Shown in pieces: positions 28,409 through 50,301 of a stretch of 64,000 nt of DNA. Both the position numbers and the translations under genes were made by a program. Origin of the DNA: Membranipora membranacea. Lineage: Eukaryota; Bryozoa; Gymnolaemata; Cheilostomatida; Membraniporidae. The first letter of the stretch is position 1, and each line of letters begins with the position of its first letter. The stretch lies in the NCBI GenBank assembly GCA_914767715.1, contig OU612069.1, positions 18,535,387 to 18,599,386 on the forward strand, given 5' to 3'. The notes beneath the pieces are model-generated. The model had not been told where the DNA came from, did not search any database, and worked only from the letters and a program-made list of their open reading frames with translations.

Positions 28409-31400
28409 TCAAAAAACATCATCATAATCTGCCACACCAGCCCACATTGTTTCATATGTATGATGTGACTCTGCCTGTGTTTCTGTAGCTGTGATGTTCT
28501 CAGGAGGCTGCAATGATGTATCTGCTGATGTATTCAGAGAAGTGTAGGTGTCTTCGCCCTGGTCCTCTCTTGTAGCTTGCATCGGAGGTTGTAGTGATGT
28601 GTAAGTTGGAGTTGTATCTCTTGACATATCTAGTGAAGTGTAATTGTCACTGTTCGCAGTCGAGTCATGTGACTTTCCACTCTGTTTAGATTGTGGCCTT
28701 TGTCTGGATAATAAGATAAGCATTGTCTGACTGTATCCTATTTTGATCAACTTTAGGTGGTCAAGGGTTTTAATTTGGATTGAAAAGCGTCAGATATTTA
28801 GTATATTTGAATGATATAGTTTTTCGCAAGGATGTGTAAAAATGGCTCCCCCCCTAACTTACTCAAGGTCCATTCTCCGATATTCAATCAATTGTATCAT
28901 TTACGTAATGTTTTTATAACAACCCAAAATGGGCTGTAAGTATCCAAGTAAGTTACTTTAAATCGGGATATAGCTAGTTATATATAGCAGTCAGCCGTCC
29001 TCATAATATATTTTTGTCTGGCACTGAGTGCAAAACATTTCGAATGAGATGACTTTGGTTGCCAATAAAAGTAACTGATTCAATACAGAGAATGTTAAAG
29101 ATTCAAAACCAGCTGATGTTACAAGAATGCGTAGCACAGATCATAATATGAATCGGTAATCTTAGTCTCCTTGCTCACTCTTGACCATCTATGTTTAAAT
29201 GATATGTCATTTCTTCAAATTTGCCAACTAAATTGAACAAATCACAGAATTGAACTCAGATTCAAGGGTGATAATTTATTTTATTTCATCTCATCTTGCC
29301 CAGCAACCAATGAAAGTTCGTTGTCAGTTTCCAGTTACAGATATTTTGCACATCATGTGTATAACATTGATACTTCGACACCTACCTTTTTTTCTTGAGG
29401 AAGAACAGAATAAGGCTTATGCAGATTACAATTATAAGTATCCCAGACACCGAACCTCCGACAATCACAGGCACTTTAATAGTTGCTGGCAAGAATCAAA
29501 AGAATATGCAATTCAATGAGTTGTAAGGCAAACAAATTTTCAACTACTTTTTTTAGAACATAATTTCCTTACTTTTAAAAAAACATAATGGCACCATCGG
29601 ATGGTAGAGCTGTTGTAAAATGTGTATGGTTGAAAGATTACGGTGCCAGAAATTAATTAATGACAACCTATAAATATTTCTGCCCTCATGTGTTCTTATA
29701 ACAGTTGGCAAATATGATTGAAATGCTGATAATGCCTCTTTACTCTACTCTTCCCCATCCTTCTTGCAATGTACTTCAATTACACCTACACATGGTAAAA
29801 ACTAACTACCCACAGCTAGCCTTTCATACAGCTACTTTCTAAAATTATTTCATACTACCATTGAAACCTCACTTTTTGTTCTAGGTGTGTTTGCTTTTGT
29901 ACCTGAATCGCTCAAGGCAACAGATGATGTAATTGTACGACTTGATGTCCCAGTAACGGTGGTGGTTGTCGAGTCACTTGTAGTTGTAGTTGGAGTTGGA
30001 GTTGTTGTTGTTGTTGTTACATTAACGTAATATCTTTCAACTACAACTAAAAGACTTTGCGATATTACAACTCTTATATTACTGCAATTACCATAACTGT
30101 ATTCTTGTGATCGATATGCCATACCTCTGGCCACCTCTTGAGTGTTTGGAAAGACTGTTTGAAAAACACACCAAAAGTTTTTGGGAAAACGCACCTTGCA
30201 TCAAAAACTAAATGTGTACTGCCATGGCTGACAAACTAACAATCATTTGAACGAATTTGATGATTATTTTTTATGACCTTGTTTGGAAGTGACAATTCAA
30301 CTAAAAGCTCAAATCTTTGCGGCCCATGTGTAATTGTAGTCAGAAATTGTCTACCTTCATGCACTTTATGTATTTGTAAATTCATGAACACATAGTTATA
30401 TTCACGTTACATTTAAGCTGCGATTGACTTTGGGAGGTTGTCCAGATCATGCAGTCAGGATAGAAAATCTGTTAACTGCATGTTCACTATAAAACTGTAA
30501 TAAAACTCATTCAAATAAACTACAATGTATCCGTACTTGTTTCACTTTCACTACATCTCAATAGGTACTTTCAGTGACCTGGCATTGACTCTCCTTAACA
30601 CAAAATAGCCAATCAGATCATAGCCAACACATTGGCTATCCAATGAGCCTTGATCATATACTTGGCTTTTCATAATATTCAGCAAATCAAGTATTATCAC
30701 ATTATGGTCTAAACACACTGAGAGAGGTTGCAATCTCAGCGGGTCCTCAATGAGTTTTTATACACACACTAATCCTCTAAGGATCAGCTGAGGGTTATAT
30801 TTTAGTACTGTGGCGTCATGCAGAATGCTCTGCACTCTGATCAAACCTCTTGGGATCAGCTGAGGCTGCTGTCAGCATACATGTTAACTATTTTGGTGTC
30901 GTGCAAAACTCTGAGGTTACAGCCGCTAAGTGTTTTGACCATTACAATATATTTGCGCTTGGTGCATGACAATTGTCAATTCGAATAATTACAAAACTGA
31001 TGTTTCATACCATATCTGAAACTCCCATCGAGACGCTCGAATATCAGTATATGACTGTCATTGATCCACATGGCGTCAGATATTGACTGAAATGTACAGG
31101 TGCTGTTAGTATCATCTATGTAGCTCGTGTTCCTAACACAATCGGTCACTTGAAGAATTGGGGCTGAAATATCCAACAGCGCAAATTGAAATTTGAAAAA
31201 AACTCATTGGTCTAGCTATTTGATAACAAAGCAAAATGATTCCCATCGGTCTCCTTGAAAAAAAACCGTAGCAGGGCTTTTTGGCAAGCCGCAGTCAAGG
31301 TATTCGGTTTGCATAATATCAGAGCAAGTACAAGTGGGGATAACCTTTCTCACTTTGAACACATGGCTTAACAGCCTCCCAGCAGAGGAATTACATATTT

Positions 31401-34400
31401 GAAATATGCTAGTTTTCGCGCACAACAAGTTTATATGAAGGAAAGAAAGAAAGCCCTCTCAAAAGCTCTTCAATTTGATAACTCCTTGCTAGTATAGACT
31501 TTCTATATAGACACTTCACTTTAACATGTAAATTGATACATACTACTTGTTTTTGTCCCGTCATCCTGGGTATACAAGAAGAATATCAAGTCGAGCTCTG
31601 TGTCAGCAATAAGTAGCGTGTTTCCATCAGGGGAGAACTGTAATCTAGCATTAGTTTGACCCAGCGCTGGATAGGATTGGTCATTGTACCGTGCTGTGCT
31701 GTCGATAACTGGCTACCCGAAGCGCTGTAATAAAGAATATTCGTGGTCATTGACTGATGGCATAGAAAAAGAATCGTTGGAACTTCCCTAATTACAAGAT
31801 AACTATGTTGATTTCGAATTTGGAACCTGTTCGCTACCTTAAATTTCTGTTTTCAGGAATTTTTCTAGGGGGGGGGAGGGGGCGAAATCATCCTGCAGAT
31901 AAGGAAACCCTTAGAATTTCTTGGCAAAGGGTTGCTTGATCATCTGCATGTGCGATTTCTATTCAAACTGGTAGAACTGAATTGATCAGTGCCATCTGCA
32001 TTGGATTGATTGATTCGAAAATGGTGTATATAGATAGATATCCTGAGATACACACAGAAAAATGATAGCGTTAGTTTGACGAACTGAAAGTATCATTTTA
32101 ATATTATCGTCATTTTGGCTTCAAACATAGTTCAAACATATTTCATTATGACGCCAAACTAACGATATGAATGTATCATTGAATTTTGATTTTCATGCAG
32201 CCTTTCATAAGTCAGACATCGTTATGTTAACGATTTGTTAAGATTATTGTTTTCTTAGCGTTAAATATTCGTTGATTAAGTTCCTTTCATAGAAATATGT
32301 TTACAATGTAGAAGGGGTATAGGCTGAGATGGCTATAAACTCATGAATGAAACTGGGACCATCTAATTATACCAAACTCAATCAATTAAATGGCTGTTTG
32401 AACTTAGAGTAATCTACTGGTGAAACTAGCAACATGTACATAGATTGCTATTCCATTCACAGCTATATTCATCTTCTTTATACTGTAGGCAACAGTTCAG
32501 ACATGGAAGGAAGAGGCAGTTCATTGGTTTAGATAATGAAAGTTTTATGTATAGTCTCATAGAATAGAAATGATCCTCAGGGCGAAGAGATCCTGAAAGT
32601 CTCAGTTGGTCACTTCATTGCGTATCCAGCTGAAGTCTTCACAAAATTGTAGTTTGACCAAGGAGTTAACTCCTTGTTTTGACTATACATGCAGGTAGTG
32701 GGTAGGTCAAATTCGCTTACACAATGCTTATACAGTTCATAATCAAATATTCGGTTTCGTAGGCGTGGTAGTAGCTATTAGAGTCTGTGCTGTAGAGGCG
32801 CCATCGGGACTCAACCTGGCCTAGCTCGCTGTTAATGTTTGCCAAATGTTGTTGTGCATAGTCTGGGCAGATACATGTGACTAAATTATCTGCAATCAAA
32901 GAGTTAGTCCTATGAATTGTTATCCTTTTGCCTCGACATAACCATTTTTTTCTCCCCGGTCGAGATCCAGTTATGCCAGCATACTGTTTTGTTGATATTT
33001 TCGGGCTGTGGGCAACGATAGGTTCGAAAATTACCTGTAAATAGAGCAAATAATTCTGATTTTCTTCCTCTTGAACATTACAAGCCTATATATACATATC
33101 CTACTAGTATCACAATGCAATTTGGGAAAGTCTAAAATCTCGATGTATTACACCAATGACAGAGTTACCTTTTGTATGGACCAGAATTTTTGTGGGCATA
33201 GTGAAGAGGGGCCAAGAAGGCTTTAAGGTAAAAAGTAATTTAGTTAAATAGTTTAATTGCAGGAGTCCAGGCAATAGCGGCACAAAATTAAATCTGTTGC
33301 AGGGTCAATTAGATGAGGGCAAATTTAGATGAGTCAGAGTGCATGAAACCATTAGCCAGATTTTAGTTTAAAAAATGGAGGAGGAATGACTGGTGGTGTT
33401 GAGTCAGCTTACCTTTCCAGGTGCATCTTCCAGGTGTCTGTCACACGTCCATCCCTATAACTACACTAACCATTTCCATTTCTTTCTCTGCACAGGGGCG
33501 TCTGAAAAAAATTTAAATAAGTCGCAGTCAATCTTAAACCATCTTCATTTCAAAATTTATGAGGTGTGGGCCTACATTTGTGTTGGAATTACCTCCCGTG
33601 AAAAAGTTAAGACAAGAAAACTTTGTGATTAGAAAACTTTTAGGCCTATAATCATTCATCTACACTCAAAACATTCAAAGAAATACTCTTACAAGACATC
33701 GCATAAAATATTTTCAAAATTGAGACAAGGGTAAGTGGCTGTCCAAGGTTTATCCACACTTTATCCGCAGGACTCCAGAAAAATAGCGGACGAGTCTCTA
33801 ATTGAGATTACCCTCAGGATAACATACTCTAGACCCAAAATTAAATTGAAACAAGACAACTTTGAGTTTAGAGAATTTTTAGGCCTATGATAATTCATCT
33901 ACACACAAAACAGGACATATATGTAGCTTGGGCAGGCTGTGAGGGGTGGGTAGTGGGGAAAGGGGAACCCCGCTCCCCAACCAACCAACCCCGAAAGCCT
34001 GCCCAGGCTAACATATATGCATGAATAAGATTAAATTTGATGTGAGATCCCCTATAGCATTATGCATATCGAGATGACTGACTTTCAAAGCTTATCAGTT
34101 GATGAATTGAAACCATGGCAAGTGGCTGTCCAGGGTTTATCCACACTTTATCCGCAGGAGTCCAGACAAAATGGCAAATGAGTCTATAATCAAAACCACC
34201 CTCAGGATTATATACTCTAGACACAAATGAAAATCAGTGGCAGGGAGGATTGGAGGGGCCAGAGGAAAATTTTGTTGCGAATTCATCCTCGTCAGGCCAT
34301 GGCGAGGCATACACGAGAGACTTTTCAAAGTGAGTCAACGGTGTACAAAATCATCAGGCAGTTTAACCTCACAAATTAGATGGGGGATGACTGGTGTTGT

Positions 34401-37400
34401 TATGTCAGCTTACCTTTCCAGGTGCATCTTCCAGGTGTCTATCAAGAATCACTCTCCGTTACCACTTTATATTTCTTTCTCTGAATGAGGGCATCTGAAA
34501 AATATTAAATAATAAATATTTTTAATAGCTGCAATTAATTAAACCTTAATTTTAAAACCCACATATGTTGTTAGCCAGCATAGTCAATGTTCTATACTCT
34601 CAAAGAGTATGCATAAAAAATGTACTGAGGGTTATTTTAGTATTTTCGATCACTGTAATGTGTCATGAAATGAGCATTTGGTGGTAGGTATGATGCTACC
34701 TGACGTTATATTCTACATGTCCAATTTTGAGACACCGGTGTCACCATGTGTGGATAAGTTGACATCAAACGAGAGTGCTGACTTTATTGGTTAGAAAAGC
34801 ATTCAGAATCTCTATTACAGGATGACGTAGGGGCGAAGGTTATCCTACATTTATCCAGTTATTTTGCAGTGATATCTGTTGCTGATTCTTACACATAAAA
34901 TACTTTTTAGAATTTTGCAACTAAACTATTTCATAGGAGAAATCAGCATCAGATGTTTCAAGCAGGCATGCATAGACCTAGTATTTCCAATAATACAAAC
35001 TCCGACCACATTTCATGCTAAGTAAATGTAAGTAAGTTAACTTTGTACACTCATGTCTCTTTCTCACAGGATGGTCACAGAGGTTTGTAGCTTGGACCTA
35101 AAGGTGTGATCATACATAAGAATCCACATCTTAGGATGCTTACACTCACAGCCCCTGCAATTCCTAACCCTCCATCTCCCAAAACCTAGATAAGCTTGAT
35201 CCAGTTTCCCTGCATTTAGGTTTTGAGCCGGAGGCTCACCAGTATATTGGGAAAGACCGGACTGCGGGCAAATTGGATCACACCTGTTCTACCCAAACCC
35301 ACATCTTTTATTTGGGGTGAAATATATTTTACTCACAGTTTTCTAGGCTGTTTCAGTCACCAGTTACGATCGTCATGTCCCAGATAAATTCAAATCCTAT
35401 GTTGACACTAGGCCCCTCACACCTTCAACAATTGCCATAAAATCAGGATCATTTGATAACGAGTCACTGGGTTAAGCTTGCGCCAACAGTGTTGGCAGAC
35501 TTACCAAATCTAAAATAGAAAAGATGTGAGGTTCATAATCAGTCCAGTATTTATGGATGAGTTATCAACACCACGATGTTTAGTAAGAAGAAGCAAAAGT
35601 AAACATAATATAAAGGTTTTAACCCGGCCGACGAGAGACACTTTGATTACCAGCTAAGCGCTATGGTTTAAGATCACCTTAACTCCCACCCTCAAATCAT
35701 GCAAGCTCAAAAGGTCAGCATATGGATCTGAGAGCAGATATTAATAATTGGCAGCTGATCTAGTATATTACGCTATCGAAGACAGTACTCCACAGTAGTA
35801 CAACAGGGGTCAAATGAATAGCTTGAGTGACAGTACATGACAGTACATTTATATCAACCAAAGTGAAAAAGTCCATGCAAAGATGGTCATGTACTGTACA
35901 TGACCATCTCTGCATGGACTTTTTCACTTTGGTTGATAAAAATGATGAGAGATTACCAGTGACAGTTTAACAGTAGGCCTAAAACTGACTCCCCTAGGAC
36001 AGTATCTTATCTTGGTGGGTGAGATTTATTTTGGATAGCAGTGAGTGTGATTGTGTAGCTCTTTTTTTAGTTTTTACTATCACAACAAGACTCACTCAAA
36101 GACCATCAAGAGGCATGAGACGGTCTGAGAAAAAATTACTCCTTGGTTTGGCAAGTCATTCAAGCTGGTTAGCAATAGAATAGTAAGGTAGGTGACAGTG
36201 TTGAATGATTGTGCCAATAAGTTTGCTCACCAGAACTAATGGCCAGTAATGAGTAACTATTTAGACTAATGCCAATCCAATGGCCAGTAGTTTGTTAGTA
36301 GTACTAGTAGCCAAGCCTAGGGAATAGTGCTATGTTGCTCAATTGATTTGTGCAGGTGCTTGTTAAGATGTTATTCTTTCACTCACTTTTCACCTACTAG
36401 GAATAACTCATTTCCTAGACACTCAACTGTCTGCAGATGCTTATGAGTTGGAATAAATTTCTTTTCTCAGAATATTTTACTTCCAAATTCTTCTTCACAA
36501 CAAATAAATGCCAAAAACGGACCCGCTATATTCTTCCCAAGGTTCCACTTCAACTTTTTGAATTAAATGAAAGAGCCCCCTACTTCCTTAAATACAATTA
36601 CTAATTTTGGAATTAGGGCTATGACAGAGCGGAAAAGTTTGAAAAAGTTTGAAAAAGTCTGAAATTGATAAACAGTCATCTTACTGCAATGTTCTCCTGT
36701 TATTGCCTGCCTGATATTCACATCACAAGTAAAAGAAGAAAAGATAATTATCTACAAAGTAGCAATACCAAAGGACTGCTGAATATATCCTGATTAACAT
36801 GCAAGAAGAAAACATTTCAATAATAATGATGAATATTATAAATAGATAAGATAGATAGATGCATCTAGAGGATGACTATTAGTCTACTAGTTCTATCAAC
36901 AGCATGGATGGATTGAAGATGGGAAGAACCAATGAGTTACTGGAACTGGCAGTACTTCTTGATGTGTCCAGCACTTCCAAAGGTAAGTCCTGTTATAAAA
37001 TGGTTAGAATTGATTAAAAACAGTAGGCCTAGGTCACCTCTAGGTGTTCCACTCACTGATTAGGCCTAGCTAGTACTTATCATGTATTAAGCTGTGTCAG
37101 GGTTAAACTTTCTTTTTGAACCTACCTTTGATCTCTCTCTCTCTCTGCGTATAGGCTTGACCAGTCTGCTTTCATACTTATACTATCAGTGTGAGGCCCA
37201 AGCCTACTCAGAGAAAGTAAAATCAGAGCCAATATCTTCATTTTAGATTAGCTTTAATATGCAATCAACTGTCTGTAAGACCACAATATGTGAAAAGCAG
37301 TTGCTTCACCTCTTTCTTCTTGAAAATTGGTTTTTTGGTTGTTGGTTGATTGTGAAACATTACGCATGTATGAATCATGTTTTCTCAAGATTAAAAAAGT

Positions 37401-40400
37401 GCTTCCAGAGTCTTCTAGCTTGGATCAGATCTTAGTGGGAAATGAGAAAAGTATGATAAACTAGATATAGGCCTACATACTTTCCTCTCAACAACCTTCA
37501 TTGCCATTCTCATGTTTGAATTCATTATGGTAATTTGGCTAAGTTTTTTTCTGCTTTTAGTTGGCAAGGAACCTAGCTAGCCCTGATAATGTCTCTCATG
37601 TTATGGCGGTCACCTATGATTGGAGCAGGATGTGGATTGTTGACAACCCTGGCCTTGAATGGAGAATTACTGACGGCCTCAAAGTCGTTATAACTAGCCC
37701 TAAGGAGGTGACTATTATTGTTATGGACTTGGTCCTGCTATTCATTCTATCACATTGTAAAGTAACATAGCTTCACTGTTATTTGCCAGTCGGATACATT
37801 TGAATTATTGGTCCTGATCAGCTATTTGTTTTCCCCTATTTACCTCCTAATAGTGATCTTCAAACTAACTGGGTCTAAGACCTTGGCTTTCCATGTCCAG
37901 TCTTAGTGTCAACACCACAGTATTGCAGTTTGATCCCTTGCGTTAGTTACTTAATGAATATAAAAACGTCTTGATCACTGCTGTAGCTTGACCAATGAAG
38001 CCAGCTAGCCATGGTCTACTAAGCATTGATGTCTTTCCGTGTCCAGGCTCAGTGATGCTACCTCAGTGTTGGAGTTTGGTCCCTTGAGCAAGTTACTTCA
38101 CGGTTAATAAAGTGTTTCAATTGTCACTACAGTTTGACTGATGAGGCCAGCTTATCTTTAGTATTGATGCCAATCCATATCCAGTCTTATTGTTCCCATA
38201 TCAGCGTTTGCATTTGGTCTCATATGCAAATTATTCATTTCATGGGTAAAAAACATCTCATTCTCAGTTCAATTTCAAACAATGAGACCAGCTTCCTTCA
38301 TAGCGTTGACTACAAAACACTGTCTTTGAGCGTTATCTCCTTAGCGTGGCAATTTTTGTAATGTAAATGTACTGCATTATGGATGATTGGACATGATTGG
38401 CTTAAATGTAAAGTGTCTTTATCGAATCAGTTTTATGCGTATAAGACAATATGTATTGTGAAACTAGAGTTCCCCCTTTTTTTGCAGTTTTGGCTGGAAT
38501 CGGAACGCTTGGGAGGGAAGCACACTGCCGAGGGAGACAAGATCAGATTACTCAGCTGATGAATCAGATGACAGGAAAAGGTTAGCATCTATGTTAACTA
38601 TGTACATTATAGTAAAATATGATACATGGCAAATCCTAATAATTGAGCGTCTAAAAACAGTGGCACTAGATGCAACTAAAAAGAATTGGGTGCTTTGCTT
38701 GTCCATTAAATTTCTCTCGACCTAACCATTTTCAAGTTTCTGTTTGGTTTTAAGTAATCAATATGTATGAGTGTATGTTATGACCGTGGCTACTACGTTT
38801 GGTGCGCTAGGGTCATTTAGCACACTGATCACGTGATATACTATTGCATGTATATCTCTGATCGATAGAGGGCAAATTCACTTAGTAGTAGTATTATCAC
38901 AAGGAATTTGGTGTGACGACCCGTGTTCAATTTTATTAATAAGTGCTGGGTACATGTAGCAGTACCTAACATGTTAGGTTCTGCTACATGTTAGGTACTG
39001 CTACTAAATTGACTCTGACGATCAGAGATACACATGTTAATAGTGTAATCGATGTCAGTGGGCGCATTGAGTGCATCAGGTTTAGGCTCTGTGCTAAGCT
39101 ATCGTTTGTGATATACTCACAGTCGTTTTGAATTGTATATCCCTCAAGAATGGTTTATTATGATGAGTGTGTTGTTTTGCCGGCCAAGACTAATAATACC
39201 GGAGGTCGACTGTGTGGTTGCACTCCCCACATGCAGTAAAAAGATCCCCCTCTGCCTTCAATAAAAAGAGTAGCCGGTATTCCGGCGGGTAAGGGTATAG
39301 GGTGCAGCTTGAGTACCATGGGTTCCTGTACCTGTACTCTAGAGGGGTAACCCTCTCCGCAATGACGACTTAAACTTAATATCCATGACATGATAGCATG
39401 ATTCTGACAGTGCTTTACTTATGTTGTAGATCCTTCAGACATCATTAGAGCAGTGATGAAAAGAATGCGAGTCAACAAAGTGGATGGTGCCCTCAAGCAG
39501 ATAATGGTTTTGAAGGACATTCTAACCGCCGCCAACAACACAGGAGGGGTTATTGCAGCTCACCAAGAGGGCAAGATTTTTATCTGTGAGCATGGTGGTT
39601 TTTCTCTAGAAATAGGTAGTCTGTGTGAGGTACTTAGTATCTTTCCCCTCATGCATTATATTCTGCACATAGAGATGCCATGTTCAACCTTCGTGAAATT
39701 TCTCGCCCAGGTTATGGGTGTTGAGGGCGAGGACGGAAAGTCCTACAATCTCAGTAAAACTCAGCACGAGCTGATTAGCAAATATACACGCTGAATTTTG
39801 TGTAGATTATTTCTCATTTCTTAACATTGTCTGACATTATATTCATTTTACCTGATCTCTTTTCCCATCTTATTGCCCTTTTGCATACTTAAGTGTTGTA
39901 TTCCCTTCCTTATCCTGTTTTATAACGCGTAACTCTCGGTTTATATTACTAATACTCAGTCACTTTTCTCATATTTCCCACATATAGACCTATGCCTAAG
40001 TTTTTTTCGTTTTACCTAATATCTTCTTCATCTTATTATCATTTTGCTTACTTATGCTTACTTATATGCACTTTTTTATCTTGTTCTGTCATATTTCATT
40101 ACTTGTAACTCTCATTTTTTATATTACTCTTATTACAATTTCACTTTTCTCTTAAATCACATGCATGTACCACTCCTAAGCTCTTTTTCAACTCAGTTGT
40201 GAATAGAAATAAAAAAATTAGAAAATATTTGGCTCTGTTTCTTGATCGGAAGTATCATTGAAGTTTCGGTGTTATAAGTGAGACTGATATTTTGAAAACA
40301 ATCAATTTGAATCATCATAAATTGGCAAAGTAACGCTACCAAGATCAGTATGATCATCTTTGAAGCCTCACTCTCGTTACTGTAACAACTATTTAACGAT

Positions 40401-43400
40401 ATCATAGCATTAGCATTATTTGAATGAATAGGCCTGGGAGGCCTGCAAACCATTTGTTATCGTTACATTGATACAAATACTAGATCCTTTTGATCAGTTT
40501 ATGACCCTGAATTGATCATATTTTGACGACTTCTTAGTTCCCCTATTTAACGACTGCCTATAGTTAGAATTCGATCAAATTAACGAATGTATTTTCCTGT
40601 GTGTATGCAAGTGGAATACCTGAGAAATCTACTTGGCATACCTAAGTGGAATTCTAAGTGCAATTTGAAGCAGAATTTTCTAAATGGAATACCTGAGATA
40701 TCTGAACAAGTTGTTATTGTACGTAACTGTACCACTTTGAGCATCTACTGTTGTCAGGTCATAGTAGTTCATACCAAAAAGAATAGAGCGCATTATTACC
40801 ATACCATATACCTAATAAAATTTATAAGTGGGATTTGAAATTTAAAAAAATACAAGTAATGCTTAATTAAATTCCTTTAATGGAATGTAAATATGAACAC
40901 AACCTATCAATAACGTTCAACATTGGGCCTTAGCTGAAATTGGTCTGATAGGCTATTGCATCTGATCCGTATTAGCATGAATAAAAAAGGCCTGGGAAAT
41001 AGTCGTCTTTACGCAAACAGAAAACCAAAATCCTCAGCATCAATGTTCATAAATTTCTAAAATGCTACTACTGTCTATATCGGCATGCCCTTGGTAGGTC
41101 ATAAGAATGCAAATGATGCTGTTCCAGATATGGAGTTCAATTGCAAGTTCATACTAAATTGTATTAATAATATTGTATTTATATTCTTGTTATGTTGGCG
41201 AGCTGTCAAACAAACCTTCAGACACTTTTTGCCAGATTATTTGATTGTTAGCTGCAGAAGGAGCTCTGATAATTTGTTGCACGGAGTCAGATACTGTATG
41301 AGACATATCTACTATGTCGATCAGTAGTCTCCCCTGTTTTGTAGTCTGATCATAGACATAGACTCCCTGCAACACAGATAAGGCACTCTGCCTGCAGGAT
41401 AGCCTTGTAACATAGTCTATCTCTGCAGCACAGCAGTGGTGGCGCTGCCTTCCATCAAGAAAAGCAACTCCCAGGGTTCAAGGTTATGAGATATCAAAAC
41501 CAGTGTCCGCTTAGGCCCAAATATTTCTAAATTATGGGTTTCCATTGTTTTCCCAAGTTTGGTACTCAGACTAGGTGAATTAGTTCAAGCCCTATGCTGC
41601 AGAGACGAACGTATGACTCAACAGTTTGCACATGCGCAGACTGCAGATAAGGAGTTGAAGCACAGAACTACCTACTTAATTAACATATTTGTTACACTAA
41701 AAATGTTTTCTCATGAATTTAAGGCAGAGTTAGAATAGTGATAAATTAAAATGATGTTCATGCATTCTGAATTATAGTATTGTGTCAGGAAATATGATAC
41801 CAGCAACACTGATTGACGCAACACTTAAGATGTATATTTTTTAGATTAACATTCTGTATAATTGCGAGTTACCTCCTCTTAATCAATGCACATAACTGAG
41901 GTCACAGGCTAACTTAGCCGAGTATCTAAACTTACCAAGTTGACAATGGCGAAAACCCACATATTTTTGTCTTCGTAAAATGTCATACCAGAAATGAGTC
42001 TCTGATAAAATGTATCGGCAGGATCGAGGTCCAAAGTGCCATTTCCGCACAGACCTATAACATAACGCAACCGACAAATTACCACAGTTGTCTCCTTTTG
42101 ACATTAACAACCATTTTGATCTGATAGCTACTTGCAATAACACACTGACTTACAATATTCAATACTAAGACCAAGTTTGGTTCATTTGCCTGCATCCGGA
42201 GTTGCTCCCCCTCAACTTTTCAAGCTGCGGCGTGACCCGAGGAAAGGGAGCTGCTGGAATGCAAGCAAAATGGATCAGACTTGTTCTGATCCATTCTCTA
42301 CACGTAGCTATGGATTTTTGATTTCGTCATTTTAAACTTCCTTAAACGCAGTCAATACTTGTCTACTAATTACGAAGCTCAAAGGCTGTTAAATTATTAT
42401 CTCTCTTACGGCGTAAGTAAAGCTAACTGAGCTTACCAATTTCAGTTGTGACGTGTTGAGCAGATATATTGACTTTCCTTGCGCATGACTTGTCGTCGAC
42501 GAAATAGATCACATCTGAATTTTTTGCCTGGTAAATATGCTCAGGTGTTTTAATCTGAACGCTTCTCCCGATTCCATCCCAATTGTGCCCAGCTACGGGT
42601 CTTGTCGCGCTCACATCTCCATATATAACTATTATGGAGAAACAATAAAATATTATCTGTGAACAAGTTTAGAGCAGCTAAAGGTAATGAAAAGTTTGAT
42701 ATCGAAACTAGCTTATCAACAATGATAGCATGAACAATAACACAATAATGATGACAGTAGTTTATTTTATGATATTTGGACTGGTGATAATTTCTTCTCA
42801 TATAGACACATTCAGTGAAAAGTTACTAAAACAATTAATTAATTATATATATCAATTATTTTGTGCAAGGTCACTGATTTTTACTCTACATATATCAATC
42901 AAGATGTACACTGTACGATTGCACATTGTTTTCCAATAAAACAGATCAATACCTCAATTGTCCATTGTTATTTCGTTATAACATACCGAGGTTGAGATAA
43001 AAGCAAGTAATAAGTTACCGTTTGCTTCTGCCGTTAGATCAGACAAAGATATGGTGCCAATTCCTCCTGATTTACCGAGAGAACTTGGAGAGCAGATTGA
43101 AATTAACAATTCCTCTGTTGATCCTTTCTTGAACTGAAAATAATTAAATCATCAAAATTAAAGTATTTCCGATGAAAAATTTTCAATGAGTTCTATAGCT
43201 CACACAACTGCAAGTGGGATGTAATGGCATTCTTATCAATCACTAATTTTACAGAGATAAATATAGATCATAAAAGGCCACTAACTCGCACTTGCAGCCG
43301 ACTGGGCACTGAGACTATGATTTTTAGTGTGATCATAGTAATGGCAATACACTTGGGAGTACTAGGCTAATGATGCATTATGGGAAGTTCTAAGTTAACT

Positions 43401-46400
43401 CCTTAGTGATAACCATCTAGCGTTACTTGAGGCAGAACTGGGAGTTGTGTTTTTTCAGTTGTTAGTTCCACACGCCTCCACCTAGCACAGACAGTACTCA
43501 GTAAGCGGTTTGACATCAGCATTATGGAAGGAAAATTTGTTACTATAAAGTGTTGTTGCTGTTACAATAGGAACCCAAAATATGTCGCGGCAGCAAAATT
43601 GTGGCTGAAGTTCCATAGGGCCTTTATAATTATGGGCCAAAGAATATTTGCAACCGAATACTATATAAGCTAAGTGGCTTATATTTGATATAGGCAACAT
43701 ATTTTGGGGCCGAAATGCACTTGGGCCAGAACACTTGATGAGCGCCGACGGCATAAAGCAAATTGTTAGCTGTTACATACCTGCATGGAACCTATACAGA
43801 CATACTCAGAGTCGACACTGTGTACCAGATCACCTTGGCTCATCAGTGTTATATTCGTCATGTTTCTAAAGTAGTCACCACGCCCTAGTGTTACTCTGAA
43901 AGAATGATGCATTCAAGTGTTATTTTAAAATCACTCTATCCCACCAGTGATCAGTTGACACAAGCCATGGGGGAAGGTAAATTGGAAAGGGTGAATGAGT
44001 TTTTTTTTTAAATTCCAAACCAGGTGAATCAAGTGTCTTCTCAAAAGCTAAATCCTGAAGCATGGGGGAGAGATATCAGTTGCCTAAAGGGCAAGGCTTG
44101 AATTTTTGCACCAGTTTGCTCTCAGGTTGCAAGCTCATCGGAGCACGCCTGGTGACCAACCAAACCCCAGTAGTAATTGATAGACTGCAATCAGATCCAA
44201 CAGTAACTTGTCATATTGTAAATAGTTATTATCTAGATCTTCAGAAGAGGTCAAGTACTTCTTCCAAATCAGAAAATATTATAATCTTTCCATGATATGA
44301 ATACCATAATTACTGGCAAAGCTCAATATTTTCATCACTACCATTTTGATGACGCAATCTGAACCATGAAGAATAGTGTTTTCTATTTCCGATGAGGTTT
44401 TTTCAGCATCTTTTGCCATTCTTAGTAAAAAAACTAGCTGAGAAGGGGGCTACAATATAATCCCCTTTTTTATTTAAGTTGAGGAAAGAGTCGCAGTTGG
44501 TTAGAGCATCTGCCATTTCAGCTCACAACTTAGTGTTGAAAGTCTTGGGTATAAATCCTGGATATTTGCATGCAGTCCACCGATCATATGGCTTTGTCGC
44601 AGTGGTCATAGTGGATTTTTTTCTTTGTGGGTACTCTCCTCTCTGGGTTGAAAATCGTTTTAAGAATTTGTTGCAATTTCTAGATCAAATTATTCAGAAA
44701 TATGGATCTGTAAAAGTATGATTGATATTTGGTAAAAGGGGACAACTTGACACTGTTTTTGAACAGAATCCAGTGGGAACTGTGTTCAAAAGGTTCCCCT
44801 CCTATATTTTTTTGCGGGAAACCAGTTCCCACTCACTCAAAACACTGCTTAATCGGCATCAAATGCATGCTTGGATCCATCTTTGCTTAATTGTTCGCTG
44901 AAACTGTGAGCTGGTATATTTTGTTGTCCTCTCCTCAAAATGAGCCCAATGACAAGACTTTCCGATTTTTGACAAGTCATTTTAAGCCACATGAAAAAAA
45001 ATATTATTGTTGATTCGAACCAAATACTTTGACCCACTATTTGTAGAAACAGGAGAGCGTAAGCAGACTCAAGCATGACAAGCTGGTAAAGTCGTCTCAG
45101 CCTGGCAAGCAGATCTCAAGTCTACCTATCAGTGGTGAATTATGCAGCGGGACATTTTAAAAATTTTATTTGCCGACCAAGTCACTTAGATATAAATAAG
45201 GCCATGCAAATTCAAAAACAAACGATAAAACAGTTGGTCATGTAGATCAAGCTTAATCTAATTGCCCAGATTCCAGTTGCTCTCTCCGACTGGTCACGCC
45301 GCAGGCAAAGGACCAGTGGAGTGGGAGCAAATCCAAATGCAGGCAAGGGTTAGGGTCATGTCACAAGGTTGTCTGAGCCCTCCTCCCGAACTCTTGCTAG
45401 CTAACAGCCAACTGTCTAAGCTAATCTAGCTGTCAAGACAGAGTCAGCCAGTTTACAGTGCTAACCGCTTGAAGCTGTCCAACCAATGTAAAAATCATGA
45501 CTTCACTGACATTTGCTTTGTTGTTAGCGAGCACTGAAGCATGTTAGCGGGTCAACAAAACCCTCTGGGATATTGTGTTATAACAACTTCCTTTTTTATA
45601 TAGCTTATGAATAAGCAATTTTTTATCAACCTCACATATTCAATACGGTTGCGTAGGAACCAATAACAACAAAGATAAGAGAGCGCTGATTCTGAACAAG
45701 GAAGTTTTGAAGTGCGTAGTTCTAAGGCTAAATTTCTCTGTATAACAAACCCATAAACATATAAATACTCTAGACTGGAAACTTTTGGCTATTTGATACA
45801 GGCTCAGTGTCTTGTATAATTCAGTGATGCGACGTCACTGCGCCATTCACTTTTTCTCTGTAGTGCATAGGTCGGAATAGGAGTTATCTCCACATAAATG
45901 TAATGTATGAATAAAAGACCTTCTTATTTCCAAATATTACCACTACAACTGGGTAAAACCGGTGAATTTTACAGAACATGTACTAATGAAGTATAAAATT
46001 TGATCAGTATACCGTGTCATCAGAAATTATGTGTGCCATAACAACATATGCTATAGCATGTTTCTGGTCTTAACATTTGTATGAAAAATGGTGCGTCAAA
46101 TTTTCAGAGTTCAAGGTTTTGCTCAGAATTTTACCTAATTAGCTGCATCTGATCTTTCCAGCTGTCAGACGTGTTGGCGTAAGATGGAAAACACTGATGG
46201 CCCATAAGTAAGGTCTGATTTCAAATGTATTTTTGTCAACTAAATGCTTAAAAGCTCAGAACACTTAGTCTTTGTTCTTCATGGTTCTTGCTCTTGGCTA
46301 CTGATGGAATTTTAGTGCGGTGAACTAAAAAAAAAATCTCAGCAGCCATCACAAGTAAATATGAACTGCAGATACAACACATGCAAGTCACCTTTACCGC

Positions 46401-49400
46401 TGTGTAGTAGTGTATGGCACATCAGATTATTTGATCTTTACCGGTGATATCTATAACACTAGTTTGATCCCTCGGAGGACGGTGGTGGTGGAGGGACATT
46501 TAAAAAGCTGTGCATCATATCAGTTTGTACCTATGTATAGTCTATATTGAGCCAAGATCTACAAGTTGTCCAGGGACCTAAGTCTGCAAAATGAGTGCGG
46601 CTTCGTCTGATTCAAATTTTCTAAGGTACTAAAGGCAGAAGATTTTTCTTCTGTCCGCGACTTCCTAATATATCAAACAGAACCCACAGAGAGCCATTTG
46701 AGTCCAGCTGCTGGTACTCAGAATTTGCAATTTGCACACTATACCCATATCTACAACCCTATAGGATGAAAATATTCACTGATTTAGATTTAGCAACCTG
46801 GCCAAGAATAGGAAAACTTACTAGCGAATCTTTAATGAATATCGATTTTGTAAATCCACAATGTATACTATCATTGGTAACTTTCCAAACACCTTATAAT
46901 TTAATTAGGGCAAGACTTATAGACTAACTTTAACTCCTTGATTAGGGAAGTAATATTTTGGATATTTTCATGAATACTTAATAAGCGAAATTTTAATTTT
47001 TATAAAAGTTTTCATGCTGTGGGGTAATCTCATAAACATATAAATACTTTAGACTGGAAACTACTGGTTAATTGAAGCATGAATAGGGTCCTCCCTAACT
47101 GCGCTTTTCAAAACTCCATACATTTTTATGCAGTAGTACGCAAAAACAGGCTTGATCTACAAGCAGATAGGTCAATATCAATCAGCCAGTTGAACACATA
47201 AATACATATTTAAATAGATTAATTATAGTATTAATTACTCAATGGTACATTATTCTTTCTCTGATAGGAGGTTTTATAACAAGAATGATGCAACTAAGCT
47301 GTAGCCTTTGTGTTGAGGATGTGGCCAAAGCGAGGGAAGTTGACATGACGACACTAATCAAACTTAGGAAACGTGATGGACTCAAAACCCCTTCCGAAGC
47401 AGTTTTGAGAGTTTGTCTTTTGTCAGAGAGAGTAATCAGATCATTGCTTAAAACAGGTTTTGGTCCTAAATTCCCAGAACTTGCCTGGCTTCTCAGTCTA
47501 TCAAAGATTATAGAGTCAGGCCATCTCTCATTGTTCAGTTGTGCTGAGCATGCAAGCAGCGTTGTGAGGGAAATAATCATGCAAACACTTTTATCCGGTC
47601 CAAAATGACCCGCCTCCCTATATTCAGCCATGTCTGATAGGATAAGTCTCCGTAAATATACAGGCGCTAAGTTATCGATTGATTTGGCCAGTCCGAGCCA
47701 CTTTTATTTTCTCTACAGCATGCACATTAAACTCAATATTTATGTGATTGATTGAATCGATAAGAATCTTGCTTAATTTTTGAAGTTTTTCTTTGGATTG
47801 ATTGGGCCAGCCTGGGCTGCATTTAAATCATACCTGATAATAGCTCAATTTCTTATCCCTATCAAATATTTTATTCATGTCCTGTTGCAAGCCAGGAGAT
47901 TATTCTCACAAGGTGAGTTAAATTGTGGTATTTTATCAAATCTTATTTCCTGTGCGATGAAGAGACCTGTTGTTCTGCCAGTTAATTTTCTTCAAAAATA
48001 AAGTCTCAAGAGGAATACCCACCAAATATTGGGGAAACACTAGACATCTAGGTCATATGTGAGATTATAAACCCTCAACGCTATTGAAACATTCCACTGC
48101 TAATTATTTGTTGATTTTTACACAGATTGATATATGTGTATCAGGGAGGGATGTGTAGGAATACCATGTCAATCTAAGACCAAAATTTCTAGCTTATGCT
48201 AGTTTAAAATGCCAGTAAGATCGATCCAAAAGTAGCTTATCACCAACAATATTATCATCCAAAATCACAAAATCGATATGAAGAGCAAAGACTCAGTGTT
48301 CTGAGCTCAGATTTCAACCCTTTAGTTGACAAAATACATTTGAAATTCGACCATACTCAAGGACCATCAGTATTATCCATCTTACGGTTACATGTCTGAT
48401 AGTTGGAAAGATCAGATGCAGTTAATTAAGTGAAAATGCTGAGCAAAACCTTAAATTTACAATGCACCATTTTTCATACAAATTCTTCAGGCCAGAAGCA
48501 GCTATAATGTAAGTTGTTATTGCACAGACAATATTTGATTGCACGATGTACTGATCACATTTTATACTTTATTGCTATATGTTCTATAAAATTCATTGGG
48601 TGTACCAAGATTAAGTGGTCATATTTAGAAATAACAGGGTGTTTTATTCTTACATTACATGTATGGGGACATTACTCCTATTGTGGCCTATGCGCTACAG
48701 TGAAAAAGTGAATAGCGTAGTGACGTTGTGTCACTGAATTAGAGAAGACGCTCTAAGCCAGTAGTTTCCAGTCCAGAGTATTTATATGTTTATGAACAAA
48801 CCTGAACAAGGAAAGGTTACAGAACAAAAGAGACCTGAATCAAAAAAGGAAAGGGTTTTTAAATAAATGTAAACATGTTTTCCAATGCTGAGGGCTAGCC
48901 CGAGACTGCCAACAGTTATATTTTTAGAATTAATGATTAGGATTGAACTTGAGACCCGGTCACTTTCTTTAGAGCATTGTGAGTACACTTTTTATAAGCA
49001 TTTTGTTATGTTATTGAAAGTCTGAAAAACACACACAACCCCTAAACCTTTCCCTCCCCCGGTAAGAAATTCAATAGAAAGAGGGAGAAACACTTGAACA
49101 AGGAAATGTCATGTGATCAGTTGGGAGGAAGATCCTTGTAGTGCATCATGGTTGTTGCGTATCTTATCCGCTGACCAAGAAGCCATTCTGAAGCTTGACC
49201 ACTCTGGCTTTCAACATAATACTCTACCCCGTTTGTAAACTACTTGGTCTATCGCGACTGAAATGAAGTAGTCATTACTATCAAACAATCATATTTGTTT
49301 GGCTAACGCAGGCATCAAGCTTATCAAGACGCTCTGTTATCACAACTCTCTTACAGATGGTGTTGGTAGAAGGCTAGTCGGATCATCAAATTGCGGCTAG

Positions 49401-50301
49401 CGCCAATGTGGAACCTTGGAAACAAAATGTAGGGAACGGTTTTTTCCCTGTTTGGAGCTGGGTACACTACCAAGGGGAATCCAGCAATATTACCAAGCAG
49501 GATAACAAAAATGACTATTTTCAGGTCTGAGCTTGAGCAGACGGTTCAAGAGGCTTAATCTGTTTCATATCTTGCCTACACTGTGCGTAACGGTTCATAT
49601 CGAAATTGGAAGTGATAGTAATGGTAGACCTTTCCCAATCAGCAGAAACTTAATCAGGAGATTTTATTAATTGGTTAATCAAGTAAATTGTCCGAACACA
49701 GTGGTAGTTGACCAGCAGCCTGCCATGCCTGCCAATCTGTCTGGTATTACTGTCACTTAACAATTTTATCAATTACAAAATAGTTAGTTTATAATATAAT
49801 CGATTGTATTATTAAATACCAGGTATTCAATTACATCAGACTATTAAATAGGATGATATTATGACTAGTGAGTACTAAGAGAGAAGTAGTGATTAGCCTT
49901 GTCAAGGCCTCTGTCTGTATTACAAGGTTCTGTATTACAAGGTTAAGTTTGGATGATATGCTTTGAATGGTAAGCAGAACACAAGGGATCTTAGTGACAG
50001 TAAGAAAAATTACAACAACTCCTAGGTCTGTTTACTAGATTAGTTTCAATGTCTGTTCCTAAAAGGGCAAGTTTATGAGTATCTCAGAATGCAATTCTCT
50101 GGTCTGCCCAGAGACATCAGATATCTCTGAAATCCCTAGTTCAATTGCATTGTGGGAAGGTTGTTAGCTTGCCTGTTAGCCTACTTTCAGTTACACACAG
50201 TTAGTTAGGTAACTCGAAAACAATAGTGAAAGCCTGATTTCCAAGTATCATACTTACAGCGTATATAGAAGTAGAATGATGTACTGTTTAGACTCCGCCA
50301 T
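28409..50301 (-). CDS. type I receptor: NHL-like propeller, Thr-rich stalk, YxxL/YxxM tail
   Basis: Eleven minus-strand exons join without phase conflict to 590 residues: 50258-50301, 43781-43895, 43019-43133, 42437-42628, 41936-42054, 32816-33034, 31544-31712, 31011-31163, 29903-30154, 29386-29485 and 28409-28703. Residues 1-20 are a signal peptide (MAESKQYIILLLYTLVTL). The next 400 or so hold NHL-like blades: SATRPVAGHNWDGIG...TPEHIY...IYFVDD, MWVFAIVNL, LQFSPDGNTLLIADTE, AMWINDSHILIFERLDG. A threonine-rich, probably O-glycosylated stalk (VTTTTTTPTPTTTT) follows. A membrane helix lies near 464-489, ending FFLKKK. The 100-residue tail has YTSL at Y514, Y527 and Y546, and YETM at Y576. Known: paired YxxL resembles ITAMs bound by Syk-type kinases, and pYxxM binds PI3K p85. 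Inferred: a cell-surface recognition receptor on blood or immune cells. The exon 6 donor (CAG|GTTGAG) is the least certain join, but other choices hit stops. Confidence 0.78.
30545..30670. repeat. dispersed repeat, second copy
   Basis: Copy of the element at 28160 and 56465, located in intron 8 of the receptor gene: tctcaataggtacttt, cagtgacctggcattg, ccaatcagatcatagcc. Confidence 0.55.
33413..33503 (-). ncRNA. non-coding spliced-looking exon, copy 1
   Basis: On the minus strand a T-rich acceptor (tttttttcag) is followed by 91 bases ending CACCTGGAAAG and a consensus GTAAGC donor. It is a paralogue of 34414-34494. No frame is open in both copies. It lies in intron 5 of the receptor gene and may be an untranslated exon of an alternative or non-coding transcript. 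Confidence 0.35.
33730..34230. repeat. direct repeat pair in receptor intron
   Basis: 33735-33850 and 34113-34225 share aagtggctgtcc, ggtttatccacacttt, atccgcagga and taccctcagga-type blocks. The surrounding 33.2-34.5 kb is a local duplication that also contains the exon pair at 33413 and 34414. Confidence 0.7.
34414..34494 (-). ncRNA. non-coding spliced-looking exon, copy 2
   Basis: Minus strand: acceptor atatttttcag, 81 bases with the same end CACCTGGAAAG, and donor GTAAGC. All three frames contain stops. It shares both splice sites with its copy at 33413, which suggests the splice signals rather than a frame have been kept. Confidence 0.35.
35852..35938. repeat. 87-base near-perfect hairpin
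   Basis: Two 42-base arms with a 3-base centre (ctg) pair with a single mismatch, near ccatgcaaagatgg against ccatctctgcatgg. Read as RNA from the minus strand the mismatch becomes a G-U wobble, so that strand would fold with every arm base paired. It lies in intron 5 of the receptor gene. Confidence 0.85.
36904..39794 (+). CDS. nested multi-exon gene, unknown 178-residue protein
   Basis: Exons 36904-36982, 38488-38580 and 39430-39794 all join in phase 1 and give 178 residues, entirely inside intron 5 of the minus-strand receptor gene. It starts MDGLKMGRTNELLELAVLL. The middle exon gives GREAHCRGRQDQITQLMNQM. The long last exon has an alpha/beta look (GALKQIMVLKDILTAANNTG, IFICEHGGF, FVKFLAQVMGV) and ends SKTQHELISKYTR. 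The CR..QI..L element faintly recalls the start of ORC5, but no Walker A motif follows, so I do not make that call. A further possible exon at 37577-37707 (phase 1 in, 0 out) would shift the middle exon into a frame that stops at 38559, giving a 93-residue product. Function unknown. No signal peptide or membrane helix is evident. Confidence 0.5.
38956..39004. repeat. perfect 19-base inverted repeat
   Basis: The arms gtagcagtacctaacatgt (38956-38974) and its exact reverse complement (38986-39004) flank an 11-base spacer. It lies in the last intron of the nested plus-strand gene. Confidence 0.85.
39800..41930. other. receptor intron sequence, no further gene seen
   Basis: AT-rich intron. Frames at 40193-40453, 40587-40838 and 41085-41327 have no motif or splice support. 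Confidence 0.45.
44481..44650 (+). mobile_element. tRNA-derived SINE, family A, decayed copy
   Basis: The head gaggaaagagtcgcagttggttagagca and the later gttgaaagtcttgggtataaatcc correspond to the A and B boxes of the copy at 51044. It lies in intron 1 of the receptor gene. Confidence 0.65.
45752..48794. mobile_element. P-superfamily DNA transposon with long inverted repeats
   Basis: Both ends begin CATAAACATATAAATACT when read inward. The inverted repeats run about 530-540 bases (45752 to about 46285, and about 48255 to 48794) with visible mismatches throughout. An 8-base target duplication, aacaaacc, flanks the element at 45744-45751 and 48795-48802. Known: P elements make 8-base duplications and their ends start with CA. 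The interior contains a P/THAP9-like transposase fragment at 47233-47608. About 3.04 kb, in intron 1 of the receptor gene and not interrupting an exon. Confidence 0.8.
47233..47608 (+). pseudogene. P/THAP9-type transposase C-terminal fragment
   Basis: The frame reads LIGGFITRMMQLSCSLCVED, then RKRDGLKTPSEAVLRVCLLS followed by E. This fits the pattern seen in P-element and THAP9 transposases (a Y.aGyi.rk. stretch, a C..C pair, then K..GGL..PS......C...E). The frame stops at 47606-47608 and nothing else of a transposase is recognisable in the element, so it appears to be a remnant. The identification rests on recalled family patterns, not on a search. Confidence 0.5.
48803..50250. other. receptor intron 1, distal part, no gene seen
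   Basis: No supported gene or repeat beyond short AT-rich segments. The signal-peptide exon of the receptor follows on the minus strand at 50258-50301. Confidence 0.45.

Follow-up and report, generated by a model that had tools for sequence, protein, structure and literature searches.

The DNA analysed here, a stretch of 64,000 nucleotides (the window), contains a dispersed and probably decaying copy of a gene whose small multigene family, in a bilaterian animal, probably encodes type I receptors: an NHL-type head is borne on a mucin-like stalk and is followed by a transmembrane (TM) helix and a tail containing YxxΦ motifs. As judged from its genes, the family is best read as a set of modular recognition receptors with putative YxxΦ signalling.

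The gene occupies the minus strand, running from an ATG at 50301 to a stop codon at 28409. These limits, the strand and the motifs quoted in the sequence-only reading were all recovered in the window, as were the Thr-rich stalk, the single TM helix, and the three YTSL motifs and one YETM. The same reading had eleven exons joining in perfect phase to give 590 residues; instead, we count 12 exons (Table 1), and the window copy has suffered a frameshift and the loss of an acceptor. That the propeller, stalk, TM and tail exons belong to one gene is established by two colinear, intact copies within 14.95–15.01 Mb of contig C8, paralogs A and B, in which all 12 exons are ordered, intact and in frame over 12–13 kb, with canonical splice sites. 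Both encode a signal peptide, an ectodomain, a Thr/Ser stalk and a TM helix, behind which the tail contains three YTSL motifs plus YETM; the proposed surface protein, of type I and with an NHL-related ectodomain, a stalk and a tyrosine-motif tail, is thus found in intact form in these paralogs. The stalk of the intact members is encoded by phase-1 cassette exons; a second stalk exon present in A and B, exon 10a, is not seen in the window copy. Exon 10a was considered as a terminal GPI exon, a reading rejected because of its phase-1 GTGAGT donor; it is better read as a cassette exon.

Table 1. Exons of the window gene and the transposon within it
Feature	Position	Strand	Remarks
Exon 1	50258..50301	-	Start codon and signal-peptide core (MAESKQYIILLLYT); gt donor
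Exon 2	43781..43895	-	N-terminal ectodomain; differs between copies; high N/S ratio
Exon 3	43019..43133	-	From paralog comparison
Exon 4	42437..42628	-	NHL-like blade (WDGIG...IYFVDDKSC)
Exon 5	41936..42054	-	Includes variable stretch; from paralog comparison
Exon 6	41216..41366	-	GVYVYD...WQKVSE
Exon 7 (true)	40693..40774	-	tblastn with P0001; matched in 6/6 paralogs (A–E and K)
Exon 8	31547..31724	-	From paralog comparison
Exon 9	31011..31163	-	End of ectodomain
Exon 10b	29903..30046	-	Thr/Ser-rich stalk; phase 1 at both ends
Exon 11	29386..29485	-	TM helix and KKK; 98–99% identity in A and B
Exon 12	28409..28703	-	Cytoplasmic tail: three YTSL, YETM, YDDV, stop
TIR transposon	32051..40603		CACACAG ends, TA flanks; 8.55 kb; in intron 7

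Several joins were rejected. An uninterrupted product of 586 aa required the ORF at 32889-32723, as did one of 582 aa and a join that was interrupted by stops. This ORF was rejected as an exon, since it lies inside the intron 7 TIR transposon, which paralog A lacks; moreover, it gave no blastn match (E ≤ 1e-3) across the 10 regions searched, six of which contain the gene.

Two lesions bear on the state of the window copy. The exon 7 acceptor reads TTTTTG/GT, as against AG/GT in 6/6 paralogs, and exon 8 is 178 nt long, as against 179 nt in all six paralogs read, corresponding to a 1-nt deletion and a frameshift. The window copy is therefore probably decaying and probably not a working gene. The genome search additionally places a TAG within its exon 8 stretch. 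It is, however, conceivable, albeit unlikely, that the copy functions through alternative splice sites, or that the two lesions are assembly errors: an in-frame join encoding a 553-aa protein exists, using an exon 8 acceptor at 31698 and a non-AG acceptor for exon 7, the tail and TM frames remain open, and the changes private to the window copy (16.7 N : 8.3 S) are not fully neutral. Against this, the lesions are independent of one another and both sites are intact in 6/6 paralogs, and the replacement share of the private changes is higher than in paralog D (8 N : 16 S).

For the ectodomain, the claim of an NHL propeller is supported at the profile level for the N-terminal half, but finds no match with the single sequence, in the C-terminal half or in Pfam NHL. 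A profile built from four family sequences and searched against the PDB matched only NHLRC2 at E ≤ 10, through two sequences (6g7w and 6gc1; 7.7e-6 and 3.4e-5, respectively), and the better value argues for an NHL-type propeller in the N-terminal half; neither stretch of this match is significant alone (0.068 and 1.4), and the best of them covers only ~95 residues. The leading matches for an exon 4 profile were NHLRC2 (6.4e-5), 3hrp (1e-4) and SOQ1 (0.033). The similarity is confined to profile searches and to about residues 67–161: the window sequence by itself had no PDB match at E ≤ 10, and Pfam NHL was not found at E ≤ 10 in the window protein, P0001 (a separate homologue), A, B, D or the exon pieces from C5 and C7, in a search where the HMMER filters discard most matches above about 0.1. 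A doubtful alternative denies the C-terminal half a propeller fold and leaves only one or two NHL-like blades in a mixed ectodomain. Consistent with this, the C-terminal half profile had no match in the PDB (the best, at E 1.1, being a fimbrial protein), hhalign detected no internal repeat in the ectodomain, and Pfam NHL was silent; yet, exon 8 holds a stretch, SPDGNTLLIADTE, that looks NHL-like by eye, and profiles of four sequences are shallow. NHLRC2 itself, a protein with a thioredoxin-like domain, is not known to be a receptor or to have a stalk, a TM helix or a tyrosine tail. An NHL-type propeller is also carried by the TRIM-NHL proteins, which are intracellular E3 ligases, and by the teneurins, which are type II and laid out differently.

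The ectodomain exons vary between copies to different degrees. Between A and D, they are 88–96% identical without gaps, as against 82.5% with many gaps for the introns, and ectodomain dN/dS lies between 0.16 and 0.76 (exons 2–7 and 9; 15 pairs among A–E and K). Between the window and A, exon 2 is 84% identical, below the introns (89%). Replacement changes are relatively more frequent in exons 2 and 5 (39.7 N : 12.3 S) than in exons 3, 4, 6 and 7 (31.2 : 36.8; Fisher p 7e-4) in a test that excludes exons 8 and 9, counts the decaying window copy among the paralogs and ignores gene conversion; the exon 9 counts between the window and its paralogs are out of register owing to small gaps. The tail yields a dN/dS of ~1 from a very small number of changes (window and A, 3 S : 11 N; A and B, 1 S : 5 N), which does not demonstrate selection on it within the propeller-head family.

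The exons are unevenly represented among the relatives in the genome. Exon 1 recurs at 93–100% identity in A–E, which make up half of the 10 regions searched, exon 6 is present at seven loci (DNA search, E ≤ 0.001), and DNA matches to exon 12 are confined to A and B (95.6–95.9% identity). C and D retain the ectodomain and have a short TM tail encoded by a different TM exon, which is found at two places; their ending after AVTRKIL presupposes that a GTAAGA donor is unused. A further member at C8:6.26 Mb has the ectodomain followed by an S/T stalk and a hydrophobic C-terminus, an end that, judged by eye, appears GPI-like. The genomic exons support a family with signalling and non-signalling members, in which one head would be presented on long-tailed, short-tailed and anchored forms. 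Four additional loci (F, G, H and I; C8 15.15–15.36 Mb) match exon 4, and no other exon reaches E 0.5 there; an exon 4 copy lies at C8:15207632. P0001 covers the exon 1–9 region without a break in a single 1244-nt contig, and was the only further relative returned by the protein searches, in some of which the best ~8000 candidates by shared words were scored.

All five tyrosines of the tail fall within YxxΦ motifs, an arrangement that shuffling reproduced in 0/200,000 trials for the window tail and in 1/200,000 for that of paralog A. The description of these motifs as immune-type is to be qualified: they are YxxL and YxxM, and correspond to neither a strict ITIM nor a strict ITAM. The residues at −2 of the YTSL and YETM motifs are D, P, D and H, which do not fit the strict ITIM pattern, I/V/L(/S)-x-Y-x-x-L/V/I; the first two YTSL motifs are 9 apart and the next 15, whereas an ITAM comprises two YxxL/I with a spacing of 6–8, which is likewise absent. 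A hemITAM has acidic residues ahead of a single YxxL; the corresponding sequence is GEDTYTSL in the window, and GKDTYTSL in A and B.

YxxΦ is also an AP2 sorting motif and, given the missing ITIM residue at −2, the protein might instead be an adhesion or endocytic receptor, whose propeller serves adhesion or ligand uptake, and whose tail has no part in immune-type signalling. We regard this as improbable, as several spaced motifs, with YETM/YETL repeated in tails encoded on C9, are more than sorting needs, and amphioxus BbLcLRR has D or H at −2 and nevertheless engages in phosphotyrosine signalling (PMC8211107).

The C9 tails are weak protein matches to exon 12 at three places (E = 0.0255 and 0.236 for two of them). 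TYETL and DYY occur in 3/3 and TYTSL in 2/3, the third having THTSL in place of a YTSL; none of them has an equivalent of the third YTSL found in the window tail, and in two only 5/9 tyrosines lie in YxxΦ. In one of these genes, a WSC domain (2.8e-13, spliced exons) is accompanied by a Thr-rich stretch as well as a TM helix, and its TM/tail intron follows the poly-Lys in phase 2, as in the window gene.

Receptors of comparable construction are known from other invertebrates; those that we found described with ITIM- or ITAM-type tails have heads of the Ig, sushi or LRR type, the last combined with WSC. The Botryllus fester co-receptors (FcoR) share with the window family a type I, multigene organization and a long tail bearing tyrosine motifs, which in FcoR are ITIM, hemITAM or core Y-x-x-I/L/V, and the exons between their TM and head are varied by splicing (PMC12065747). 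Their head, however, is Ig plus sushi, with no NHL stated, and their role in allorecognition has been studied. BbLcLRR resembles the window family in combining a TM helix with tail tyrosine motifs that have D or H at −2, motifs that are inhibitory in BbLcLRR, and it has a WSC domain, as does the C9 relative, although its head is LRR plus WSC (PMC8211107). The Alr recognition receptors of Hydractinia form a 41-gene family in one complex (PMC11999971) and contain ITIM and hemITAM motifs (PMC12065747), but their heads are Ig V-set and I-set, unlike that of the window family. Among the open-access matches listed, no family contradicts the claim that such a layout is undescribed, although this is weak evidence.

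In the proposed mechanism, the propeller-like ectodomain would act as the ligand head, binding a surface or soluble ligand; a Src-family kinase would then phosphorylate the YxxΦ motifs, allowing SH2 proteins to be recruited. The short-tailed and GPI-like relatives may serve the signalling members as partners or as decoys, in the manner of paired recognition receptors. More tentatively, the phase-matched cassette of TM and YxxΦ tail, with its Thr-rich stalk, placed beneath heads as unrelated as an NHL propeller and a WSC domain, together with the short-tailed and GPI-like propeller forms, might represent an invertebrate counterpart of the paired immune receptors that uses a β-propeller head rather than Ig, LRR or lectin. 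A tail of this kind topped by a propeller head would broaden the range of recognition folds, and a clustered family with exchangeable ends and a WSC-headed related tail would illustrate receptor assembly by exon shuffling. The intact A and B genes render the receptor reading testable.

Scanned against Rfam and for tRNAs, the window returned one weak tRNA match and no relevant feature. The host is a bilaterian, and an origin from a sponge was rejected: a search of the genome with an Antp homeodomain gave 10 matches at E ≤ 1e-10 (best 92%), five of which lie within C1:21.41–21.47 Mb, the Hox cluster.

The gene under study reads as 12 exons on the minus strand (see the table), one more than the eleven of the sequence-only reading, whose outer limits (28409 and 50301) hold as the stop and the ATG and whose quoted sequence motifs are present in the gene. 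The best joint explanation of the evidence, and one that we consider fairly probable, is that the gene is a probably decaying member of a receptor family with an NHL-type head, a Thr/Ser stalk, a transmembrane (TM) helix and a tail of YxxPhi motifs.

Exons of the window gene (window positions) and intact paralogs (assembly positions)
Feature	Position	Strand	Remark
Exon 1	50301-50258	minus	
Exon 2	43895-43781	minus	
Exon 3	43133-43019	minus	
Exon 4	42628-42437	minus	
Exon 5	42054-41936	minus	
Exon 6	41366-41216	minus	
Exon 7	40774-40693	minus	
Exon 8	31724-31547	minus	
Exon 9	31163-31011	minus	
Exon 10	30046-29903	minus	stalk
Exon 11	29485-29386	minus	TM
Exon 12	28703-28409	minus	tail
Paralog A	C8:14950838-14963215		all exons in order, open, canonical sites
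Paralog B	C8:14987566-15000868		all exons in order, open, canonical sites

That head, stalk, TM and tail are parts of one gene is best supported by the intact exon series of A and B; the 559-aa product of A has the layout of the window gene. Paralogs were sought in the 339.3-Mb assembly (18 contigs; window at C5:18535387-18599386), and 10 regions were taken from it for comparison. At E<=0.001, exon 4 DNA finds 12 places, exon 6 DNA seven (A, B, C, D and E on contig C8; the window copy and K on C5) and tail exon DNA three (the window, A and B). K has a stop within exon 4 and an altered exon 8 donor, and may therefore be dead. A search of 5.8 billion proteins returned one relative, P0001 (398 aa, E 2.4e-43; 34% identity across 63% of the query), from a 1244-nt contig, and two further protein searches added none. 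Its exon 1-9 region is unbroken, as expected of a spliced transcript or, less probably, of an intronless gene. Compared with the window by tblastn, P0001 revealed an overlooked exon at about 40775-40693, namely exon 7, and gave no clear support to an ORF at 32889-32723. The latter, rejected as an exon, sits within an 8.55-kb insertion (32051-40603; CACACAG inverted ends, TA flanks) that distinguishes intron 7 of the window from that of A; this transposon also contains a near-perfect palindrome (35846-35944; 49-nt arms, 1 nt between, 96%).

The window copy is probably decaying, because it has lost the exon 7 acceptor (TG, versus AG in 6/6 paralogs) and one base of exon 8, carries a TAG within its exon 8 match in the genome search with P0001, and has many private replacement changes (16.7 N : 8.3 S, versus 8 N : 16 S in D). 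The same search finds no stop in the exon 8 match of A-E, K or the C2 gene. An alternative in-frame splice join, or lesions introduced by assembly error, seems unlikely: such a join, giving 553 aa, does exist, but all six paralogs retain both the acceptor and the exon 8 base that are changed here, and we continue to favour decay. Elsewhere in the copy, an element with 105-nt inverted arms (84%) occupies 46129-48435 of intron 1, its ORF weakly matching the THAP9 transposase (E 0.0013, below cut-off), and at 30046-31011 stalk exon 10a has seemingly been lost through recombination of the related 10a/10b regions seen in A and B.

The head of the family fits no Pfam model, and the window ectodomain, searched singly against the PDB, finds nothing at E<=10. 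Against all PDB sequences, a four-sequence head profile (P0001, A, D and B) gives two matches at E<=10, both to NHLRC2, with whole-chain E values of 7.7e-6 and 3.4e-5; the stretches that make up the better match, two in number, have 0.068 and 1.4 when taken singly, and the match is best across profile residues 67-161. Seven exon-4-type sequences, combined in a profile, give 15 matches at E<=10, with NHLRC2, 3hrp and SOQ1 at the top and weaker unrelated ones, e.g. Elongator 6. For the C-terminal half the profile search finds nothing, and hhalign detects no internal repeat in the head. The NHL propeller of the sequence-only reading is thus supported, at the level of profile similarity, for the N-terminal half, where the matches fall, and is assumed for the remainder.

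All five tail tyrosines lie in YxxPhi motifs (YTSL three times, YETM and YDDV), an outcome reached by 0/200,000 shuffles of the window tail and 1/200,000 of the A tail; none of the window motifs is an ITIM or an ITAM by the strict definitions. Within the family, replacement and silent changes per site are about equal in the tail, on few changes. With the tail as query, the genome also yields three weaker matches, all on C9 (E 0.0036, 0.0255 and 0.236). All three C9 peptides contain TYETL and DYY, and two contain TYTSL (THTSL in the third); the third YTSL of the window tail has no counterpart in any of them. In the two longer C9 tails, 5/9 tyrosines are in YxxPhi, matched by 30 and 154 of 100,000 shuffles. 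The recurrence of the same motifs in these divergent tails argues that they are in use.

The ends of these genes vary. In C and D, stalk exon 10a is followed by a TM exon of another type, which ends in AVTRKIL(KH) and a stop; a genome search at E<=0.001 finds this exon only in these two, and a GTAAGA donor inside it could splice to additional exons. At C8:6.26 Mb, a more distant gene (exons 2-9 matched at 35-59% identity) finishes in a terminal S/T-rich exon whose last residues, LTSSANLFLFSPIFVWLMISSV, look by eye like a GPI signal. Downstream is a peptide resembling TPR repeats (by eye), and across C8:6.237-6.318 Mb exon-6-type matches occur four times, at spacings of about 25-29 kb, one of them in this gene. 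The C2 gene carries exons 4-9, with no end found. Searched with P0001 at E<=1, the genome gives 64 matches, including NHL-like exons on C5, C7, C9 and C11; one C5 locus has an EGF-like stretch too, for which the Pfam hEGF match (0.012) falls below cut-off. On C9 at 12.0 Mb (11997601-12001600), a related tail (TYTSL, TYTPL, TYETL, YYNM and YATL) is preceded by a WSC domain, a Thr-rich stretch and a TM helix. The WSC match is at 2.8e-13, above cut-off, when the exons are spliced, and at 0.018 and 0.0003 when they are taken singly. The TM/tail intron there follows poly-Lys in phase 2, read from the bases, as in the window, and exon order and phase suggest a single gene. Since a related TM and tail occur there under a WSC domain, the TM-tail cassette seems to be independent of the propeller head. 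Two more related tails lie on opposite strands at C9:15939501-15942500. At C8:15.15-15.36 Mb, four of five exon 4 copies examined are open or nearly so and stand without the other exons, three of them having one extra base on the acceptor side; behind copy E (C8:15.715-15.73 Mb) are long ORFs of Polinton-like appearance, judged by eye as integrase-like and protease-like.

The 15 pairs that can be formed from A, B, C, D, E and K have ectodomain dN/dS values of 0.16-0.76. Between A and D, all eight exons compared are closer than the introns; between the window and A, exon 2 is 84% alike and the introns 89%. Exons 2 and 5 show relatively more replacement changes (p 7e-4; pairs A-B, C-E and window-D), as expected of contact surfaces. 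This reading is weakened in that the comparison uses paralogs, may be affected by gene conversion and includes the window copy, which is probably decaying.

From the observed gene anatomy, we propose steps of binding, signalling and modulation as the most likely: the head would bind a ligand, the stalk would keep it away from the membrane, phosphorylated tail tyrosines would recruit SH2 proteins, and relatives with a short tail or an anchor would act as modulators or competitors. A precedent exists in amphioxus BbLcLRR, whose tail tyrosines, with D or H at -2, were tested and are inhibitory (PMC8211107). The Botryllus FcoRs combine core YxxI/L/V motifs with stalk-exon splicing (PMC12065747), a precedent for both features. 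Among the matches listed in the open-access literature, there is no report of a tail of this kind under an NHL head; invertebrate receptors with immune-type tyrosine tails are a known kind.

In the same genome, the fly Antp homeodomain finds 10 matches, the best at 92%; five lie within C1:21.41-21.47 Mb and, judged by similarity, represent the Hox cluster of a bilaterian.
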